Origin: Terriglobia bacterium
GTDB taxonomy: Bacteria > Acidobacteriota > Terriglobia > Bryobacterales > Bryobacteraceae
Direction of reading: 5' to 3'
DNA length: 64,000 nt
Assembly: GCA_021325235.1 (NCBI GenBank)
Contig: JAJPHN010000025.1
Location: 496,001-560,000, forward strand
Below, piece after piece: positions 4,441 through 22,839 of the stretch. The notes below the pieces were generated by a model that saw only the letters and a list, made by a program, of their open reading frames with translations, had not been told where the DNA came from and did no database searches. Positions within the stretch are counted from its first letter, which is position 1. Each line of letters begins with the position of its first letter. The position numbers were made by a program, and so were the translations under genes.

Positions 4441-5754
4441 TTAGTCGTAATATTCGAGGCCCAGATGCGTGATCAGATCTTCGCCCTTCATCCATCGGAG
4501 CGTGTTCTTCAGCTTCATCAGCTGGATGAAAATATCGTGCTCCGGGTACAGACCGGGCGCCGTCATAGGGCCTTTGAAGTAGAACGAGAGCCACTCCTGT
4601 ATGCCTTTCATTCCGGCACGCTGCGCGAGGTCAAGAAAGAGCACCAGATCCAGCACCAACGGCGCGGCCAGAATCGAATCCCTGCAAAGGAAATCGATCT
4701 TAATTTGCATAGGATAGCCGAGCCAGCCGAAAATGTCGATATTGTCCCAGCCTTCTTTGGCATCTCCGCGGGGCGGATAGTAGTTGATTCGTACTGCATG
4801 GTACAGGTCTTTGTATAGCTCGGGATAGAGCTCCGGCTGAAGAATCTGCTGCAGTACTGAGAGTTTGGTCTCTTCTTTGGTTTTGAACGAGCCCGGGTCT
4901 TCGAGCACCTCGCCGTCGCGATTGCCGAGAATGTTGGTCGAGAACCAGCCCTGCACACCCAGCATGCGCGCCTTGAAGCCCGGCGCGAGCAGCGTCTTCA
5001 TGTAGGTCTGCCCGGTTTTGAAATCTTTTCCGCAGATGGCCACTTCGTTGCGCCGCGCGAGCTCGAGCATGGCCGGTATATCGGTCGTCAGGTTTGGCGC
5101 GCCATTGGCAAACGGCACTCGCAGCTTCAGCGCCGCGTAGGCGTAGATCTGGCTCGGCGAAATTTCGGGATCGCTGCGCCGCAATCCCTCTTCAAACGCT
5201 TCCACGCTTTGATGCACTGCAGCCGACTTATGGAACACCTCCGTCGATCCGCACCAGATCATCACGAGCCGGTTGCAGCCGTTTTTCTGCGCGAAGTCGC
5301 GGATGTCCTGCATCACGGCTTCGGCCAGCTCCATCTTGTTCGAACCCTGCTTCACATTGGGCCCGTCGATTTTGCGCACGTAGTCGTGATCGAAGACGGC
5401 TTTCATCGGCCGGATTGCCGACAGCGGCTCTTTGAGCTGGTCGAGAAGCGTTTGCTCGAGCACTTTGGCGCGCGTGGCCGCCTCATACGCGTTGTCTTCG
5501 TAAATGTCCCAGCCGCCGAAGGCCAGACACTCAAGCGAAGTGAGCGGGACGAACTCTTTGATCTTCGGCGTTCTGCCTTCGGTGCGCTTGCCGAGCCGGA
5601 TGGTTCCAAGCTGCGTCAGCGAACCGATCGGCGCGCCCAATCCGCGCTTCACCGCCTCCACACCCGCGATAAACGTGGATGTAACCGCACCCATTCCCGG
5701 TATCAGAATGCCGAGCTTACCGTGCGCCGGCGCAATACTCACTTCTTTTGCCAA
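4441..5754 (-). CDS. Inositol-3-phosphate synthase (INO1-like)
   Basis: Myo-inositol-1-phosphate synthase family (437 residues): NAD-dependent isomerisation of glucose 6-phosphate to inositol phosphate in the cytosol. The N-terminal Rossmann motif is GILIPGMGAV. The family core is visible in GKDFKTGQTYMKTLLAP, GWFSTNILGNRDG and the lysine-bearing KIDFLCRDSILAAPLVLDL. I place the start at a TTG preceded by AGGAG eight bases upstream; the longer frame adds 14 residues without family similarity. It is the first gene of a minus-strand run with the epimerase. Inositol phosphate may feed phosphatidylinositol or other inositol conjugates; no downstream enzyme of such a pathway is present here. Confidence 0.93.
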   Translation of the reverse strand: MAKEVSIAPAHGKLGILIPGMGAVTSTFIAGVEAVKRGLGAPIGSLTQLGTIRLGKRTEGRTPKIKEFVPLTSLECLAFGGWDIYEDNAYEAATRAKVLEQTLLDQLKEPLSAIRPMKAVFDHDYVRKIDGPNVKQGSNKMELAEAVMQDIRDFAQKNGCNRLVMIWCGSTEVFHKSAAVHQSVEAFEEGLRRSDPEISPSQIYAYAALKLRVPFANGAPNLTTDIPAMLELARRNEVAICGKDFKTGQTYMKTLLAPGFKARMLGVQGWFSTNILGNRDGEVLEDPGSFKTKEETKLSVLQQILQPELYPELYKDLYHAVRINYYPPRGDAKEGWDNIDIFGWLGYPMQIKIDFLCRDSILAAPLVLDLVLFLDLAQRAGMKGIQEWLSFYFKGPMTAPGLYPEHDIFIQLMKLKNTLRWMKGEDLITHLGLEYYD

Positions 5755-16263: not shown

Positions 16264-17055
16264 CTATCGCAAGGTAATCTGATCTCCCGGCAGCAACGGC
16301 ATTGCGAGCACTGCCTCCGGATCGCCCTTCACGCGTACCGGCAGCAATCGTCCGTTGTAGAGCCGCTTCATTGTGAACGGCCGTGGCGATTCGATCACGC
16401 TCGACAGCTTGCTACCCCACACCACATCCTGCGGCTTCTGGTTCACCACGATCTTCATGTACACCGCCACTGAGCACGCCTCCGGAAACACCGTGCAATG
16501 CGCCGCACCGTTCCCGCACACCAATTCCGGATCTCGCAGCTGCGCTGCAAGCCCCTTCAGTTCTTCCTCCGAGTTCGCTCCCAGCAGCACCGATCCGCGC
16601 GCATTGCGGCTCCGCGCAAAAACAATCTCGAAGTAGAACCGGTACGCCCGAAAATGCATCTGCGACGGACGAATCAAATCCTGCACCGCCGGATCCGCTT
16701 CCGGCCGGTTTTTCATCGGTTCCACCGCGAGCAGCTTCAACCCGCCTGAACAGACTTCATAGCGCGCCGTCTCGGTTCCCAGAAATCCATCCAGCCCGCG
16801 CCTCGATGCCCCCGGCTTGTAATAGGCATTCTCGATGCGCAGTTCCATCAACGGCTGCAGGTCGACCGATTCGCCTCCGCGCACGAAGCCGTTGTACGCG
16901 CGGGGAATGTCTGGAAACGCAACCTGCTGCGCGTCGGGCGTTCGGAGCAGGTACTCCGGCGTCTCTGGAATCACCTGAAAGGAACGGACTCTTGGCCCGC
17001 ATGAAACCAGAACAACCGCCAGTACCGCGATCGCAAGCGTGCCCGCGCTTCTCAA
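16264..17055 (-). CDS. Lipoprotein of unknown function
   Basis: A 263-residue putative lipoprotein. I place the start at a TTG overlapping the ABC-F stop (TTGA), giving a short signal (LAIAVLAVVLVSCG) with lipobox Cys near residue 19. A longer frame extends into the ABC-F coding region and is not plausible. The mature part contains three spaced cysteines (YEVCSGG, ELVCGNG, CTVFPEACSV) that may form disulfides. It ends LLPVRVKGDPEAVLAMPLLP then GDQITLR. Not recognised. It is probably the third gene of the FUSC / ABC-F / lipoprotein run. Confidence 0.7.
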   Translation of the reverse strand: MRSAGTLAIAVLAVVLVSCGPRVRSFQVIPETPEYLLRTPDAQQVAFPDIPRAYNGFVRGGESVDLQPLMELRIENAYYKPGASRRGLDGFLGTETARYEVCSGGLKLLAVEPMKNRPEADPAVQDLIRPSQMHFRAYRFYFEIVFARSRNARGSVLLGANSEEELKGLAAQLRDPELVCGNGAAHCTVFPEACSVAVYMKIVVNQKPQDVVWGSKLSSVIESPRPFTMKRLYNGRLLPVRVKGDPEAVLAMPLLPGDQITLR

Positions 17056-18857
17056 CGCAGCCCGCTCACTTTCTCCTCCAGCTCGGCCCAGCGTGCATAC
17101 AGCGCGTCCGCCTCGCCTTGCGCTTGCTCGATCTCGGCCAGCGCCTGCTGCAATCGCTTCGGATCGCGCGTGACCTCCACATCTTCGAGCAGCGCCTTCT
17201 TTGCCGCCAGCACTGCATCCGCTTCCGCAATGCGCTGCTCGATCGTCTCCCAATCGCGGTTCTCGAGATAGGAAAGCTTCCTGGCCGGTGCTCTCGCTTT
17301 CTCCGGTGTTTTCCTGCTTTCAACCGCTTCCGTCCCCTGATCACTGCGCTCGGCGAGCCAGGCCTCCCATTGCGCGTAATCGGCAAACAACTGCGCTTCG
17401 CCTGTGCCATCCAGTCCCAGCACCGTGGTCGAAACGCGATCGAGCATAAAGCGGTCGTGCGTCACCAGCACAAGTGCCCCCGGAAACTCGAGCAGATTTT
17501 CTTCGAGGATCTCGAGCGTTGGAATATCCAGATCATTGGTCGGCTCATCCAGCAGCAGCACATCTGCCGGCTCCAGCATCAGCTTCGCAATCAACACCCG
17601 CGCCCGCTCGCCGCACGACAACTTCCTTACCGGCTGGTTCAACTGCTCGCTCGAAAACAAAAACCGCGCCGCCCACGACGCCACATGAATCGGCCTGTCC
17701 TGAAAAATCACCGAATCGCCATCCGGCGCCAGCGCGCGCCGGAGTGTCAACATTGGATCAAGCGTTCGATTCTGTTCGAAGTAAACCATTCGCAGCGATT
17801 GCGCCCGCTCCACTCGCCCCGCACTCGGCTCCAGTTCGCCCAGAATCAGCCGCAGCAGTGTGGTCTTGCCCGAACCATTCGGCCCCACCAGCCCAATCCG
17901 CATCCCCGCCGTGATCGCAAAATTTAGATCCCGCGCAATGGTCCGCTCGCCGAAAGCAAAGGTAACGTCGTCAAACTTCACCAGCCGCTTCGTCGCGCGC
18001 TCGCTCGCCGTAAAGTCGATCCCGGCTGTTCCCGTGCGCTGCCGTCCCTGCAGATCTTTCAGTTCGCCGATCAGCTCATGCGCCTGATCGATGCGCGCCT
18101 TCGCTTTCGTTGCCCGCGCTTTGGGTCCGCGCCGCAGCCACGCAATTTCCGTGCGCACACGATTTTCGAGCGCCTCCTGACGCTTGACCTGGGCCGCCAG
18201 TACTTCTTCTTTTTTCTCGAGAAACGCGGCGTAGTCGCCCGCCACGCGTAGCACCCCCTCGGCATACATCCGGTTCAGCTCCACAATCCCGGTCGCCACA
18301 TTCTGCAGAAAGTACCGATCATGGCTGATCACGATACAGGCAAACGAACCGCTGCGCAGCAACCCCTCGAGCCACTCGATCCCGGCCAGATCGAGATGAT
18401 TCGTCGGCTCGTCCAGCAGCAGCAGATCGGGCTCGGAGACCAGCGCTTTCGCAATCGCCAGCCGCTTGCGCCAGCCGCCCGAAAGTGTCTGGGCTTCGCT
18501 CTCGAATTCGGTGAAACCCGCGCGCCCCAGCGTCTCGCTCTCGAGCCGGTCCCTTTCGCTCGCTGCCACATGCGCCTGCTCGAGCGCCCGCCGAATGACA
18601 TCGCGAACCGTTTCCCCCGGCGCAAATTCCGACTGTTGCGCCACATAACTCACCCGCGTGTTCTTGCGCAGCGCCACCGTGCCGCTGTCCGCTTCGCGCC
18701 TTCCGGCAAGAATCTCGAGCAGCGTCGATTTGCCCGAACCATTCGGCCCGATCAGCCCCAGCCGGTCGCCTTCGGAAACCGCGATCGAAAGATTCTCGAA
18801 CAACGGCTCCGCGCCGTAACGTACCGTCAGCTCCTGTGCGTTGAGTAAAAGCGCCAC
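17052..18857 (-). CDS. ABC-F family ATPase (Uup-like)
   Basis: A 601-residue soluble protein with two ABC domains and no membrane segment. Domain 1: Walker A GPNGSGKS (37-44), signature LSGGW, Walker B LLLLDEPTNHLD. Domain 2: GPNGSGKT, signature LSCGE, LLLLDEPTNDLD. A basic inter-domain linker (RRGPKARATKAKARIDQ) and a C-terminal coiled-coil-like region (540-601) match Uup. ABC-F proteins act on ribosomes or, for Uup, on branched DNA. The second signature has Cys in place of the first Gly, a mild deviation. It starts 21 bases after the FUSC gene and overlaps the lipoprotein start. Confidence 0.92.
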   Translation of the reverse strand: MALLLNAQELTVRYGAEPLFENLSIAVSEGDRLGLIGPNGSGKSTLLEILAGRREADSGTVALRKNTRVSYVAQQSEFAPGETVRDVIRRALEQAHVAASERDRLESETLGRAGFTEFESEAQTLSGGWRKRLAIAKALVSEPDLLLLDEPTNHLDLAGIEWLEGLLRSGSFACIVISHDRYFLQNVATGIVELNRMYAEGVLRVAGDYAAFLEKKEEVLAAQVKRQEALENRVRTEIAWLRRGPKARATKAKARIDQAHELIGELKDLQGRQRTGTAGIDFTASERATKRLVKFDDVTFAFGERTIARDLNFAITAGMRIGLVGPNGSGKTTLLRLILGELEPSAGRVERAQSLRMVYFEQNRTLDPMLTLRRALAPDGDSVIFQDRPIHVASWAARFLFSSEQLNQPVRKLSCGERARVLIAKLMLEPADVLLLDEPTNDLDIPTLEILEENLLEFPGALVLVTHDRFMLDRVSTTVLGLDGTGEAQLFADYAQWEAWLAERSDQGTEAVESRKTPEKARAPARKLSYLENRDWETIEQRIAEADAVLAAKKALLEDVEVTRDPKRLQQALAEIEQAQGEADALYARWAELEEKVSGLR

Positions 18858-18878: not shown

Positions 18879-21071
18879 TCATGTGCTCGGCAGCGGCACT
18901 GGACCTTGTCTCTCGCTCGAGATCTTATTCAAACCCACAAACCGCAGCACCTGCTCGCGCATCGTGTTCATGCTCACGGTCAGCCGGTCGGTCTCGATCA
19001 GCAGATACTCGTCGCGCGCACCCGAGCTCTTCGCCTCTTCGAGCAGCTTGCGATGATCCTCCCGCAGACTCGGCAGCGTCTCGGCCGCAAACTCGGAGCC
19101 GCGCAGCGCCGCCGCCAGATAATACAGCGTGAAATCCACATCCTGTGCAAACGTCTGAAAAGCCGCCGGCATTTGCACCCCCGGCCCGTGTATATAAAAC
19201 GCTTCGAGCGACATCACCCCGCGCACAAACGCATGCGAGCTCGCCAGAATCGAGGTCAGCGCATCCGTTTTCACCTGATCGGCGCCCGGCTCCGAGCACA
19301 CCCTGTCCAGCGATGCCTCCGCTCGCGAACGCGCCTGCCGCCATGCATCCCGCGCGCTGTCCAGTTCGTCTTCGGAAATCTCTTCCACGCCGCTAAGCCG
19401 TTTCGCCACAGCGCGGAAATAATCGCGTGTTCGGTCGATCATCTCCGCCATCGCGTCCGGCACCAGCGTTCGTTCCCACGTCGGCCACACCGCATAAGCA
19501 ATCAGCGCCAGCAGCCCTCCCGCGGCCGTGTTGACGGCGCGTTGACCGATCACATCCATCGGCGAAACACCCGTGATCGCGATCAGAAATACAATCAGGC
19601 CGCTGATCGCCACACTGAAAATTCCATAATTCGCCGGGCCCGCATAACGCAGCGCGAATGTATAAATACCCACCAGCGCCAGCGCCGCGAACGCCGTGTG
19701 CGGCACCACGTGATAGCACAGCGTTGCCAGCAGCAGGCCCGCAAACGTGCCGCCGAGCCGTAGCACGCCGCGGCTGATCGTAGTCGTAAAATCCGGCTTC
19801 AGCACGACGGCTACCGTCATCGGTAGCCAGTAGTTGCGCTGCGTGTTGATGCTGCGCCCAATCCCTGTTCCGATCGCCACACACACCGCCATTCGCACCG
19901 CATGCCGGAATGCCGGGGAACCAAAATGCAGATTCGCTCGGAGCGTCGCCAGCCAGCTTTGCAGCTGCAGCTTGATCGGCGGCGCATACTCCCGCTTTGC
20001 GAACGCCTCGGCGCCCTCTGTCGTGCTGTTCGTCGCCAGCTGCATGATCACGCGCAACTGTCCCGCCAGCACATCCATCGCTCCAGCAAGCTGATCCGCC
20101 GCCGAGCCGCGCTGTCCCTTAGTTGTCTGAATTTCTTCCGTGAGCGCGTTTAGCTGCTGCGCCAAATCCGGCGAAACAGAATCCACTCTGTCCTCGACGA
20201 GCGACTGCCCCACCGCCCGCAGGATCGTCTGGCTCAAGTCCAGCGCTTCCTTCTGAATCTTCAGCTCCGCTTCGCAGCATTCGCCCGCACGCAGCGCATG
20301 CTCCAGCGTCCCTTTGAGCCGCCGCACCGAGTAGATCGAAAAGCGCACGCGCTCCGCCTGGTCATATAGCAGCCGGAATCGCTCACCCTCCAGACTGTGA
20401 TCGCGACCCAGCGCCGAAAGCGTGTCCTGTACCGCCGCGCTCGGCTGTTTCAGAGGCGCCGCCAGGACATCTTCCGGCTCGCTCCCCACATGCTCCGCCA
20501 GATCGAGATAAACTCCGCCGATCGCCTTGCGCTCCGGGCTCGAGCGCCGTATCGGCCAGGACATCAGCGCCAGCGCGGTCTGCAGCAATCCGCCGCCCAG
20601 CACCAGCAGTCCCGCATAAAACGCACCCTTGGGCGAGAGCGCCCCGCGCGCCGCATACACGATGAGCGTGACCAGCGTATTCAGTCCGAGATCGCCCGCG
20701 CGCGTACTGATCGACACCAGCAGGCCGGCCATGAGCGACCAGCCGAACGCCACAATCACGGCCAGCACGTGATAGTTGCCGGTTACCGATCCCAGAAACA
20801 CCGCAACCGCGCCCAGCAACGTCCAGCCCAGCATCCGCCGCGCCCGGTGCGCATAGGGATCGCGGCCATCGGAGTAAGCAACGTTCAGTGCACCGGTCGC
20901 AACTGCCACCGCTGCCAATGGATGTCCGATTGCAATCCCGATCCCGAGCGGCAGCGCCACTCCCGCCGCATTGCGAAACGCCATCCGGACCGTGTTGCGT
21001 TTGCTTTTATCAACCCGCTTCAGAACATCCCAGAACGACGGAATCCACCGCGGTAACGAGCCCTGCGCCAT
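18879..21071 (-). CDS. FUSC-family membrane protein (aromatic acid exporter-like)
   Basis: A 730-residue inner-membrane protein with two blocks of transmembrane helices: residues 30-170 (AAGVALPLGIGIAIGHPLAA, YHVLAVIVAFGWSLMAGLLV) and 385-525 (LPMTVAVVLKPDFTTT, GTFAGLLLATLCYHVVPHTA). Each is followed by a long helical cytoplasmic region. The motif VVLKPDFTTTISRGVLRLGG in block 2 is characteristic of FUSC/YccC/AaeB relatives. These are linked to efflux of fusaric or hydroxylated aromatic acids. No membrane-fusion protein is adjacent, so the partner is unknown. It heads the minus-strand run with ABC-F and the lipoprotein. Confidence 0.85.
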   Translation of the reverse strand: MAQGSLPRWIPSFWDVLKRVDKSKRNTVRMAFRNAAGVALPLGIGIAIGHPLAAVAVATGALNVAYSDGRDPYAHRARRMLGWTLLGAVAVFLGSVTGNYHVLAVIVAFGWSLMAGLLVSISTRAGDLGLNTLVTLIVYAARGALSPKGAFYAGLLVLGGGLLQTALALMSWPIRRSSPERKAIGGVYLDLAEHVGSEPEDVLAAPLKQPSAAVQDTLSALGRDHSLEGERFRLLYDQAERVRFSIYSVRRLKGTLEHALRAGECCEAELKIQKEALDLSQTILRAVGQSLVEDRVDSVSPDLAQQLNALTEEIQTTKGQRGSAADQLAGAMDVLAGQLRVIMQLATNSTTEGAEAFAKREYAPPIKLQLQSWLATLRANLHFGSPAFRHAVRMAVCVAIGTGIGRSINTQRNYWLPMTVAVVLKPDFTTTISRGVLRLGGTFAGLLLATLCYHVVPHTAFAALALVGIYTFALRYAGPANYGIFSVAISGLIVFLIAITGVSPMDVIGQRAVNTAAGGLLALIAYAVWPTWERTLVPDAMAEMIDRTRDYFRAVAKRLSGVEEISEDELDSARDAWRQARSRAEASLDRVCSEPGADQVKTDALTSILASSHAFVRGVMSLEAFYIHGPGVQMPAAFQTFAQDVDFTLYYLAAALRGSEFAAETLPSLREDHRKLLEEAKSSGARDEYLLIETDRLTVSMNTMREQVLRFVGLNKISSERQGPVPLPST

Positions 21072-21141: not shown

Positions 21142-21588
21142 TCAATTGCGCGGCGAACGATATTCCATCGCGGACGCGGTGATCAGCAGTGCGGCTTTCG
21201 AAGCATCCAACGCTGCGTACATCCAGTGCAGAGGCGAAAACACAACCGGTGCTCCCGCCAGGATTTCGGAAACGCGGCGATCCAGTTCCGGTAAAAGCCA
21301 GTAGCGTTGAAGCAGCAGCTCGATCACCGCCACCGCAAGCATAATCGCGATCCGGGCTTTCGTACGCGCAAGAATAGCAGCCACCACGACCACGCTGGAA
21401 AAAACAAGTTCGAGCGCGCTGAACCACTGAAAGGTATACCGCCCGACCTCCACTCCAGCGCGCAGACTCAGCGACGCCGCCTGGAATTTCGCCGGGGTCG
21501 CCACGAACGATACGCCGATAATCGTCCCTGCCCACAGCGTCGCCAATATCGGGAGCGTCGCGCGAGCGGCGTGTCTGATGCTGTTCAC
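21142..21588 (-). CDS. Four-helix membrane protein of the haemoglobin operon
   Basis: A 148-residue integral membrane protein with four predicted helices (ILATLWAGTIIGVSFVATP; FQWFSALELVFSSVVVVAAIL; IAIMLAVAVIELLLQRYW; WMYAALDASKAALLITAS). The motif GVSFVATPAKFQAASL near the first helix looks conserved; the whole is loosely like DUF4149/TMEM205 proteins, unverified. The start is GTG, overlapping the cupin stop as GTGA, so it is translationally coupled. It is the last gene of a three-gene unit starting with the truncated haemoglobin; a role in nitrosative stress is inferred only from that. Confidence 0.75.
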   Translation of the reverse strand: MNSIRHAARATLPILATLWAGTIIGVSFVATPAKFQAASLSLRAGVEVGRYTFQWFSALELVFSSVVVVAAILARTKARIAIMLAVAVIELLLQRYWLLPELDRRVSEILAGAPVVFSPLHWMYAALDASKAALLITASAMEYRSPRN

Positions 21589-21911
21589 TGTGCAGCCGCG
21601 TGCTGCTCGGATACATGCACGATCAGCACCAGGTGCTTCTGCTCGCCTGCCGCGACGCTGTGTGCTACCGATCCAGCCAGGCTGATCAGTACGCCGGGCC
21701 GCAGCGCAATCGAATCGCCGTCGCTGACGAAAGTCCCTTCACCCGAGATGCAGTGAACCGAAATCGGTCCAGGTGTCCGATGTTCCGGGATGCCTTCGCC
21801 CGGCTCCAAATGCAGCAGCAGCGCGCGCAATCCGGCCTCACGAAACAACGTCGTCGCGCGTGGCAGGCTATCGCTATCAACCAGATATTGCTGTAAATCG
21901 ATCTGCGGCAT
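21585..21911 (-). CDS. Small cupin protein
   Basis: A 108-residue single-domain cupin. The first motif is GEGIPEHRTPGPISVHCISGEG, with candidate metal ligands His-His; the second is the region LAGSVAHSVAAGEQKHLVLI. The start is an ATG overlapping the haemoglobin stop by one base (TGATG). No signal peptide, so cytosolic. Cupins of this size can bind metal and act as dioxygenases, or simply sense ligands; no substrate can be assigned. Being locked between haemoglobin and membrane protein suggests a role tied to NO or oxygen chemistry. Confidence 0.8.
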   Translation of the reverse strand: MPQIDLQQYLVDSDSLPRATTLFREAGLRALLLHLEPGEGIPEHRTPGPISVHCISGEGTFVSDGDSIALRPGVLISLAGSVAHSVAAGEQKHLVLIVHVSEQHAAAQ

Positions 21912-22315
21912 CAAACGCTCATTGCTTCCGTTGCTTCTGGGGCTGTCGAGCTGTGGAATTGCGAAATCGCTCCGAGCAGGCGGGCACCGATCATCTCTGC
22001 TCGGCTGATAAAGATCTCTGCTGTCTGCTTTTCACACAGCGAGTTTGCGGTTTTGCGCCATAACGCGAGCCAGCGCTCGAAATGAGTCCCGGTCAGCCGC
22101 GGCAGCTTCAGATGCGCAATCATCGGATTTCCTTTGTACGTCCGCGACGCGAGCAACACCGACGACCAGAACCTCTTCATCTTCGCCAGGTGCGGCGTCC
22201 ACTCGTTGCCGATTGCTTCGTCAAAAATTGGACCCAGCACTCGGTCCTGCCGGATCGCGCCGTAGAACGTGTCGACCATCTCGGCAATGCTGTCTTCGTT
22301 TACGCTCTGGTACAT
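21911..22315 (-). CDS. Group III truncated haemoglobin
   Basis: A 134-residue globin of the 2-on-2 group III type, like Campylobacter Ctb. Tyr18 is the likely B10 residue (DTFYGAIRQD), followed by LGPIF. His68 in the AHLKLP segment is the likely proximal F8, and Trp82 in HFERWLALW is the G8 tryptophan. No membrane segment. These proteins bind O2 and NO and are implicated in NO detoxification. The ATG at 22315 is preferred to a TTG two codons earlier. No Shine-Dalgarno is present, and the promoter palindrome lies seven bases upstream, so the mRNA may be nearly leaderless. First gene of the operon with the cupin and membrane protein. Confidence 0.9.
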   Translation of the reverse strand: MYQSVNEDSIAEMVDTFYGAIRQDRVLGPIFDEAIGNEWTPHLAKMKRFWSSVLLASRTYKGNPMIAHLKLPRLTGTHFERWLALWRKTANSLCEKQTAEIFISRAEMIGARLLGAISQFHSSTAPEATEAMSV

Positions 22316-22321
22316 GTTCAA

Positions 22322-22350
22322 CTAAAGATGTATCTATAATACATCTTTAG
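22322..22350. promoter_or_regulatory. NsrR-type operator palindrome
   Basis: A perfect 12-base inverted repeat, CTAAAGATGTAT and its complement, separated by CTATA. The core AAGATGTAT...ATACATCTT matches the general form of the known NsrR site. It fills the gap between the divergent haemoglobin and Rrf2 genes: right end nine bases before the regulator ATG, left end seven bases before the haemoglobin ATG. It contains A/T-rich -10-like sequence on both strands, so one bound dimer could block both promoters. Confidence 0.85.
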
Positions 22351-22359
22351 AGCTTTCCC

Positions 22360-22839
22360 ATGTACCTGACGCGCCAGGCTGATTACGCCATGCGGCTGTT
22401 GATCCATCTGGCCGTTCAGCCCGGCTCCATCACCACCATCCAGGAAGTTGCTGACCGCTTCGGCATCTCGCGCAATCACCTGATGAAGGTCGCGAACCGT
22501 CTGACCAGGGCCGGCTATGTAGCGGGCACTCGCGGCCGCGCGGGCGGGTTGAAACTGGCCCGTAGCGCGGACCGGATCAACATCGGAGAAGTTCTGCGCA
22601 CCGTGGAGGATTGGAATCTGGTCGAATGTTTTGAGAGCTCTTCTCCCAACTGCCGCATCGCCCCCGCCTGTGGCTTACAGTTCGTTCTGAAGGAAGCCGT
22701 CGAAGCATTTCTGGCGGTTCTCGATCGTTATTCGCTGGCAGATGTGGTTCGCAGGAAATCCGTGCTCATTCAGGTTCTCGGCCTGCCGCGAGTCAGCAAA
22801 GGCGTGGAATCATCCCGCATTCCGGGCAGGCATTTCTAG
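22360..22839 (+). CDS. nsrR: Rrf2-family transcription regulator, NsrR-like
   Basis: A 159-residue Rrf2 protein. A winged helix lies at residues 1-75 (DYAMRLLIHLAVQ; FGISRNHLMKVANRL; RGRAGGLKLA). Three cysteines, Cys90, Cys98 and Cys104, have the C-x7-C-x5-C spacing of Bacillus NsrR. Asp8, the fourth cluster ligand known from Streptomyces NsrR, is present. It should therefore hold an NO-sensitive [4Fe-4S] cluster. IscR-type spacing is not seen. The ATG lies just downstream of the palindrome, implying autoregulation and repression of the divergent haemoglobin operon. The last 20 residues are poorly conserved. Confidence 0.88.
   Translation: MYLTRQADYAMRLLIHLAVQPGSITTIQEVADRFGISRNHLMKVANRLTRAGYVAGTRGRAGGLKLARSADRINIGEVLRTVEDWNLVECFESSSPNCRIAPACGLQFVLKEAVEAFLAVLDRYSLADVVRRKSVLIQVLGLPRVSKGVESSRIPGRHF

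Follow-up and report, generated by a model that had tools for sequence, protein, structure and literature searches.

A group III truncated haemoglobin-cupin-membrane protein operon beside an NsrR-type regulator and a perfect NsrR-like palindrome in an acidobacterial genome

The 64-kb window analyzed here is a stretch of contig JAJPHN010000025.1 from a Terriglobia bacterium (Bryobacteraceae), whose 5.03-Mb genome is assembled in 60 contigs, and our analysis was confined to sequence. Within it, a gene for an NsrR-type regulator of the Rrf2 family is divergent from an operon encoding a group III truncated haemoglobin (trHbIII; trHb, truncated haemoglobin), a cupin and a four-helix membrane protein, with a perfect palindrome between them (Table 1). 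A first-pass annotation had described the locus as a compact nitric oxide (NO) response module, and the four open reading frames (ORFs) and the coding overlaps that it listed are present as claimed. The trHb and cupin genes share one base (TGATG, with the cupin read from ATG 21911), and the cupin and membrane protein genes share four (GTGA). For the trHb, ATG 22315 (MYQ..) is likely to be the start codon rather than TTG 22321, because two related loci (L011 and L012; L and G numbers are our handles for loci and genomes) carry MY at the matching position and because TTG 22321 abuts the palindrome; with this start, six bases separate palindrome and start codon.

Table 1. Features of the locus, in window coordinates.
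Feature	Position	Strand	ORF extent	Evidence
NsrR-type Rrf2 repressor, 159 amino acids	22360-22839	+	22360-22839	PF02082, 1.8e-34; D8, C90/C98/C104
Proposed NsrR operator, perfect 12+5+12 palindrome, for both divergent transcripts	22322-22350	strandless		consensus match; counterparts in relatives
TATAAT, -10-like hexamer within the operator	22335-22340	+		sequence, inference only
Group III truncated haemoglobin (trHbIII), 134 amino acids from ATG 22315	21911-22315	-	21911-22321	2ig3 match; 19-relative profile
Single-domain Cupin_2 protein, 108 amino acids from ATG 21911	21585-21911	-	21585-21914	PF07883, 9.2e-9; AlphaFold2 barrel
DUF4149-like four-helix membrane protein, 148 amino acids	21142-21588	-	21142-21588	PF13664, 18.1 bits; model

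The palindrome, CTAAAGATGTAT-CTATA-ATACATCTTTAG, is the sole pair of 12/12 arms with a 5-base spacer in the window, the runner-up reaching 10/12. The published NsrR consensus is gATGyAT-(N5)-ATrCATc (PMC1274295), and the palindrome core, GATGTAT-N5-ATACATC, agrees with it at 14/14 defined positions. Across the whole genome the exact consensus occurs at one place and one-mismatch sites at two further places, with none for a reversed-pattern control, and among 2000 single-base shuffles of the stretch 22300-22370, none equalled the operator score. The perfect NsrR-form palindrome that the first reading had placed in the divergent promoter therefore stands. When the shuffle control was extended over 17 stretches, 13 gave at most 4 of 2000 and L150 gave 18, and L047 and L015 were siteless; the stretch taken for L017 ended before its site (12/14, overlapping the putative trHb start), so that its value of 832 is no test. 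On the other strand at the operator centre, TATTAT (22341-22336) lies opposite TATAAT, and because the two hexamers occupy the centre on opposite strands, a bound repressor would cover both -10 regions.

Counterparts of the operator and of the operon were sought in 150 genomes of the family, our own (G000) included, of which 8/150 contain a sequence matching the trHb (E≤0.001). In 7/8 of these, a site scoring 12/14 or better lies at or just upstream of a trHb start, with 13/14 in G101, G128, G008 and G080 (two contigs) and 12/14 in G111 and G071, the G071 site overlapping the putative trHb start. No operator of at least 12/14 was found in the 14-kb G026 locus or at the second trHb of G080 (L015). 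The G026 match is weak (27%) and by eye belongs to another trHb group, and no partner query matched in that locus. A divergent NsrR-like gene is present in 4/8 (G000, G101, G008, and G111). The first-pass annotation had staked its module on the gene order being kept in relatives, and this holds for the trHb-cupin pair, which recurs in 6/8 (G000, G128, G008, G080, G071, and G111, the trHbs of G071 and G111 being divergent in sequence, at about 24-28% identity), but not for the full trHb-cupin-membrane gene order, found in only 2/8 (G000 and G128). Based on these counts (7/8, 6/8, and 2/8), the trHb and its operator form the core of the arrangement, usually joined by the cupin and only occasionally by the membrane gene as well.

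Elsewhere, trHbIII is preceded by a 13/14 operator in Fodinicurvata (L072) and in a metagenome-assembled genome of Pseudomonadota (L124), and the regulator-trHb pair by a 12/14 operator in both L085 and L087. In Brevundimonas (L050), a 14/14 operator stands between an NsrR-type gene and the genes for a DUF1971 protein (a family with the cupin fold), Hmp and the membrane protein. Three annotated plasmid loci with an Rrf2 gene and trHbIII (L196, L197, and L198) have nothing above 10/14 in the stretches examined, and therefore the operator is not universal. Look-alikes of 12-13/14 near position 8380 in L049, L053, L056, L060, and L062, and at 2784 in L058, were rejected as lying inside ccoN coding sequence.

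The regulator matches PF02082 (Rrf2) at 119 bits against a cut-off of 30, and it carries D8, C90, C98, and C104, which are the C-x7-C-x5-C cysteines and Asp8 seen on first reading. In the Streptomyces NsrR structure, three cysteines and Asp8 serve as the ligands of the cluster. The best match in the PDB is NsrR (5n07, 1e-16), and the best NCBIfam model is likewise NsrR, at 139 bits, below the equivalog cut-off of 182, and therefore we use the label "NsrR-type"; the initial NsrR-like call is upheld by fold, ligand residues and operator, and not by this cut-off, which two NO-linked alphaproteobacterial regulators also miss (125 and 129 bits). A 23-row tree with long branches, from which RirA was left out, provisionally places the regulator beside E. 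coli NsrR and the NO-linked regulators of other loci (support 94/92), and E. coli IscR and three Rrf2 paralogues of the same genome fall outside this group. Asp at the D8 position and three cysteines are found in every trHb- or membrane-gene-linked regulator with a readable N-terminus. Our first cysteine search pattern missed the regulators of L050, L124, and the first copy in L072, each of which has three cysteines; the spacing in L050 and L124 is C-x2-C-x5-C, and therefore x7-x5 spacing is not general in such loci.

Two relatives of the regulator stand in other contexts. A paralogue in G008 (59% identical; L178 4615-8443) is found ahead of two multicopper oxidase genes (NirK-like by eye) and cytochrome-like genes, and a palindrome at 5303 resembles the operator at 11/14 positions. 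In G071, a 44% relative lies behind genes encoding a truncated globin and a reductase of the ferredoxin type, an arrangement that resembles a Legionella NsrR target (PMC1274295, PMC3820574).

The assignment of the globin to group III is confirmed by its best solved relative, 2ig3 (group III, 7.8e-24; next YjbI, 4e-5), and a profile of 19 relatives matches it at 1.4e-32. We take 2ig3 to be Campylobacter Ctb. The haem-pocket columns Y20, H44, H70, and W84 (numbered from TTG 22321) are conserved in our alignment (A4), and presumably correspond to B10 for Y, E7 for H and G8 for W, plus the proximal His. Many annotated plasmid relatives carry the name group III truncated hemoglobin, and no viral relatives were found with a single-protein query, which reaches close relatives only. 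We know of no established function or electron donor for group III truncated haemoglobins.

The cupin scores 35.3 bits for PF07883 (Cupin_2) against a cut-off of 27.2, and its AlphaFold2 model (predicted local distance difference test, pLDDT, 89) is a cupin barrel, in line with the first-pass call. The model is nearest to 3fjs (2.4e-8) and also near 1yhf, both small RmlC-like cupins of unknown function, and the best 50 of 565 fold matches (E≤0.001) are for the most part cupins whose functions are undefined or diverse, and give no functional pointer. Among 11 aligned cupins (A5), H44 and H84 are invariant and C54 is conserved in 9/11, and the usual cupin metal motif (HxH..E..H) is incomplete, with the second His and the Glu missing.

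There are two copies of the cupin in the genome (E≤0.001), and the second, 44% identical, comes after a Crp/FNR gene; a gene for quinol NO reductase (qNor), called by PF22085 and COX1, runs divergently from that Crp/FNR gene (L200, G000:C48:68048-71370 plus flanks). Ten cupin places were found in 9/150 family genomes (E≤1e-8): six beside trHb, one at our own qNor, one fused to DUF2249, which we take to be COG4309, and two without modelled NO genes within 1.5 kb. The fusion (L208 1180-1791), whose cupin half is under the Pfam cut-off, lies beside hemerythrin and radical-SAM genes. COG4309 is co-transcribed with nor genes (PMC1274295). In another acidobacterial family (f22; of 47 trHb places, 30 loci were fetched), qNor stands beside trHbIII in 12/30 loci. 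In 7/12 of these the cupin gene is just upstream of qNor (L037, L038, L185, L186, L187, L192, and L194), in 11/12 a Crp/FNR gene adjoins trHb, mostly convergently (the exception being L192), and in 2/12 the membrane gene is also present (L037 and L038). An NsrR-like gene was found in only 3/30 fetched trHb loci, our own included (L135, L148, and L150). A plasmid search with the cupin returned 10 records, and the single context examined (Deinococcus H69) had no NO gene among the annotated names; a second cupin query (L185) had zero plasmid matches. No NnrS match was obtained in our own genome, but none was obtained in control genomes either, and we do not claim its absence.

The membrane protein scores 18.1 bits for PF13664 (DUF4149), below the cut-off of 24.6, and is therefore labelled "DUF4149-like"; PF13664 matches 18/41 members of its family at E≤0.01. 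Its AlphaFold2 model consists of four long helices (mean pLDDT 96), as the first reading had it, and a PDB fold search with this model gave no match at E≤0.001. A scan of a collection of species genomes confirmed at least 561 relatives, and the neighbour counts that follow cover the best 80 loci. A trHbIII gene lies within 1.5 kb of the membrane gene in 30/80 and anywhere in the locus in 32/80; the 30 linked pairs (26 on the same strand, 20 within 150 bases or overlapping) span Acidobacteriota, Alphaproteobacteria, Bacteroidota, and Actinomycetota according to record names. One of them, L048, is from the genus of the window and is the same locus as L012 (G128). Other neighbours include NsrR-like (15) and Crp/FNR-like (11) regulators, cbb3 ccoN (10), NnrS within 5 kb (4), narI within 2.5 kb (3), Hmp (1), and qNor (1). 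Some NO-linked neighbour is present in 38/80. None of the nine modelled genes is present in 39/80, of which 27 are actinobacterial by record name. Three actinobacterial "cupin" neighbours (L107, L120, and L121, part of a raw 6/80) were rejected for weak scores, being apparently another kind of cupin.

These contexts vary in order. The membrane gene follows Hmp under the 14/14 operator of Brevundimonas (L050), the order in L124 is trHbIII-(DUF1971)-qNor-membrane gene, and that in Roseivirga (L066) is CRP-trHbIII-membrane gene-cupin. In Mesorhizobium and its kin, trHbIII, the membrane gene, and an NsrR-type gene stand in this order just upstream of cbb3 ccoN (L049, L052, L053, L056, L058, L062, and L070), some with NnrS or Crp/FNR genes as well. 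An annotated plasmid carries the order group III truncated hemoglobin-hypothetical protein (the membrane family)-Rrf2 regulator. On a Polymorphobacter plasmid (L197 3171-5967), an Rrf2 gene is divergent from group III trHb, DUF1971, and hmpA, with a small hypothetical ORF between the Rrf2 gene and trHb and a 4-base trHb/DUF1971 overlap much like that of trHb and cupin here. Within the phylum, the membrane protein (E≤1e-3) was found in 13/395 genomes besides our own and trHbIII (E≤1e-10) in 42/395; both occur in 9 of the 13 membrane-protein genomes (hypergeometric 4e-7, a value inflated by related genomes and obtained with differing E-value limits).

Downstream of the operon, on the same strand, lie a FUSC-type transporter gene (18879-21071) and an ABC-F-like gene (17052-18857), with gaps of 70 and 21 bases, and these may be co-transcribed with it. 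A wider operon including them was rejected, as both are missing behind the membrane gene in the two loci checked, L012 and L047. In L047 (949-1782), the first 58 residues of the regulator were not found, the remainder adjoins the membrane gene, and the operator, trHb, and cupin are missing, which points to a natural deletion or misassembly. A SAM-methyltransferase-like gene (by eye) is found near the module in L012 (3041-3607) and L047 (306-893), and in other organisms NsrR is predicted to control tehB homologues (PMC1274295).

Taken together, we hypothesize with good confidence that the locus is a self-contained NO-defence switch, in which the NsrR-type repressor controls itself and the trHbIII-cupin-membrane operon. 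By analogy with the protein families, the repressor would hold an iron-sulfur (Fe-S) cluster on its three cysteines and Asp8, and, when bound to the 29-bp palindrome over both divergent promoters, would repress its own gene and the operon. NO would destroy the cluster, the repressor would leave the DNA, and all four genes would be expressed, after which trHbIII, judging from its family, would bind and consume NO. Gene neighbourhood suggests, tentatively, that the cupin is a small metal/thiol helper for iron proteins that consume NO or are damaged by it, a role like the one proposed for Thermus NsrT, and the membrane protein a bilayer-side partner that ties NO removal to the respiratory membrane. 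It is likewise conceivable, though doubtful, that the cupin and the DUF4149-like protein form a hitherto unrecognized cross-phylum NO-handling pair, serving trHbIII, Hmp, or qNor under NsrR or Crp/FNR control, and acting here with trHbIII in a membrane-docked NO-removing complex.

Several observations weigh against such a switch. A promoter scan of the divergent region found no -35/-10 sigma-70 pair. No site of at least 12/14 lies near the qNor of our own genome (best 11/14), so that no evidence of a wider NsrR regulon emerged. The full gene order is rare among relatives, G101 has regulator and trHb alone, with neither partner adjoining the trHb, and G128 has no close regulator elsewhere in its assembly (best 37%; 92% complete). 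The regulator misses the NsrR cut-off, the RirA model comes near at 125.5 bits, and the absence of RirA limits what the tree can tell. Further, 42/80 best membrane-family loci are without any modelled NO-linked neighbour.

The nearness of the RirA score to that of NsrR is also the starting point for reading the regulator as a RirA-like or IscR-like sensor of iron or Fe-S status, with the operon as a haem or iron-economy unit. The x7-x5 cysteine spacing is common to RirA and Bacillus NsrR, and the regulator of L050 scores higher for RirA (131.6) than for NsrR (129.3), though flanking hmp. However, all readable linked regulators have Asp at D8, the operator is the NsrR consensus, genes for Hmp, qNor, NnrS, and nitrate reductase are among the neighbours at other loci, and IscR and the three Rrf2 paralogues lie outside the tree group of the regulator, and we regard an iron sensor as very unlikely. 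Alternatively, the functional unit might comprise only regulator, operator, and trHbIII, the cupin and membrane genes being passengers on the transcript, as the rarity of the full order, the lone trHb of G101, and the membrane-family loci without NO-linked neighbours would allow. We consider this fairly unlikely, given the overlapping reading frames, the cupin with trHb in 6/8 family genomes, the recurrence of cupin and membrane gene with trHbIII and qNor beside another type of regulator (L037 and L038 in f22), and the trHbIII-membrane gene pairs in four phyla.

In principle, trHbIII might instead handle oxygen, sulfide, or haem when oxygen is scarce, with NO acting only as a signal of anoxia; cbb3 oxidase genes indeed adjoin in alphaproteobacterial loci, and a group III trHb of M. 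avium belongs to the hypoxia (DosR) regulon (PMC11876180). By contrast, qNor, Hmp, and NnrS among the neighbours point to NO itself, and a group III trHb of Bradyrhizobium is among NnrR-dependent genes, alongside denitrification genes (PMC6710368), making a role confined to low oxygen quite unlikely in our view.

Because the operon is compact, has one repressor with a single site and only two partner genes, and recurs in part across phyla, it offers a short list of candidate partners for trHbIII. It also points to NsrR control in Acidobacteriota, a phylum often met in soils, which turn over both NO and nitrous oxide. In addition, it flags as likely to be NO-linked a membrane family that the annotated plasmid records viewed call "hypothetical protein" or DUF4149.

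In the NsrR regulons of proteobacteria and bacilli, as here, an Rrf2 regulator adjoins a globin target and the same operator consensus is used, and the Legionella glbN-ferredoxin reductase operon provides a truncated-globin precedent under NsrR (PMC1274295). The targets there are Hmp, or GlbN with a reductase, whereas here trHbIII is joined by a cupin and a membrane partner, and the host phylum is Acidobacteriota. The first-pass annotation held that neither partner was known from NsrR regulons. For the membrane protein this is sustained within the literature searched (mostly without subscription journals), where nothing was found that links a DUF4149-like membrane protein to NO or NsrR and none of the titles listed for DUF4149 concerns NO, but for cupins it is not, given Thermus NsrT, Sphingopyxis, and E. 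coli YeaR. In Thermus, nsrR-nsrS-nsrT adjoins norCBH, and NsrT is a 98-amino acid Cupin_2 protein for which the authors suggested a role in iron-centre repair (PMC5748679). The likeness to our locus, an NsrR-type gene encoded with a Cupin_2 protein, is one of protein family, and Thermus differs in its NsrS partner, its operator, and an operon in which no trHb is described (PMC5748679). In Sphingopyxis granuli, a cupin-norB-nnrS2 operon is induced by NO, with values of 5 to 14 and 4 to 18 that we interpret as the fold increase under anaerobiosis and with an NO donor, respectively; the cupin there goes with an NO reductase gene, and the part of the report available mentions no trHb or membrane partner (PMC6472365). 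The most NO-induced operon in that organism (100 to 200-fold), SGRAN_3394-3396, is divergent from nsrR and encodes poorly defined proteins (PMC6472365).

E. coli YeaR (yeaR-yoaG) is NsrR-regulated (PMC5320621). It belongs to DUF1971, a Pfam family distinct from Cupin_2, and in alphaproteobacterial loci genes of DUF1971 adjoin those for trHbIII or Hmp. Among the best 50 of the 565 fold matches of the cupin model, YeaR does not appear. Campylobacter Ctb, the closest solved globin and also of group III, is controlled by NssR, a Crp/FNR regulator (PMC3820574), so that the type of regulator differs. Given the scarcity of the complete gene order, the occurrence of the membrane family outside NO loci as well, the NsrR score below the cut-off, and earlier publications on cupins encoded with NsrR or norB (PMC5748679, PMC6472365), we rank the locus as a variant rather than a new kind of system, which its sequence marks as a putative new form of NsrR-regulated NO defence.

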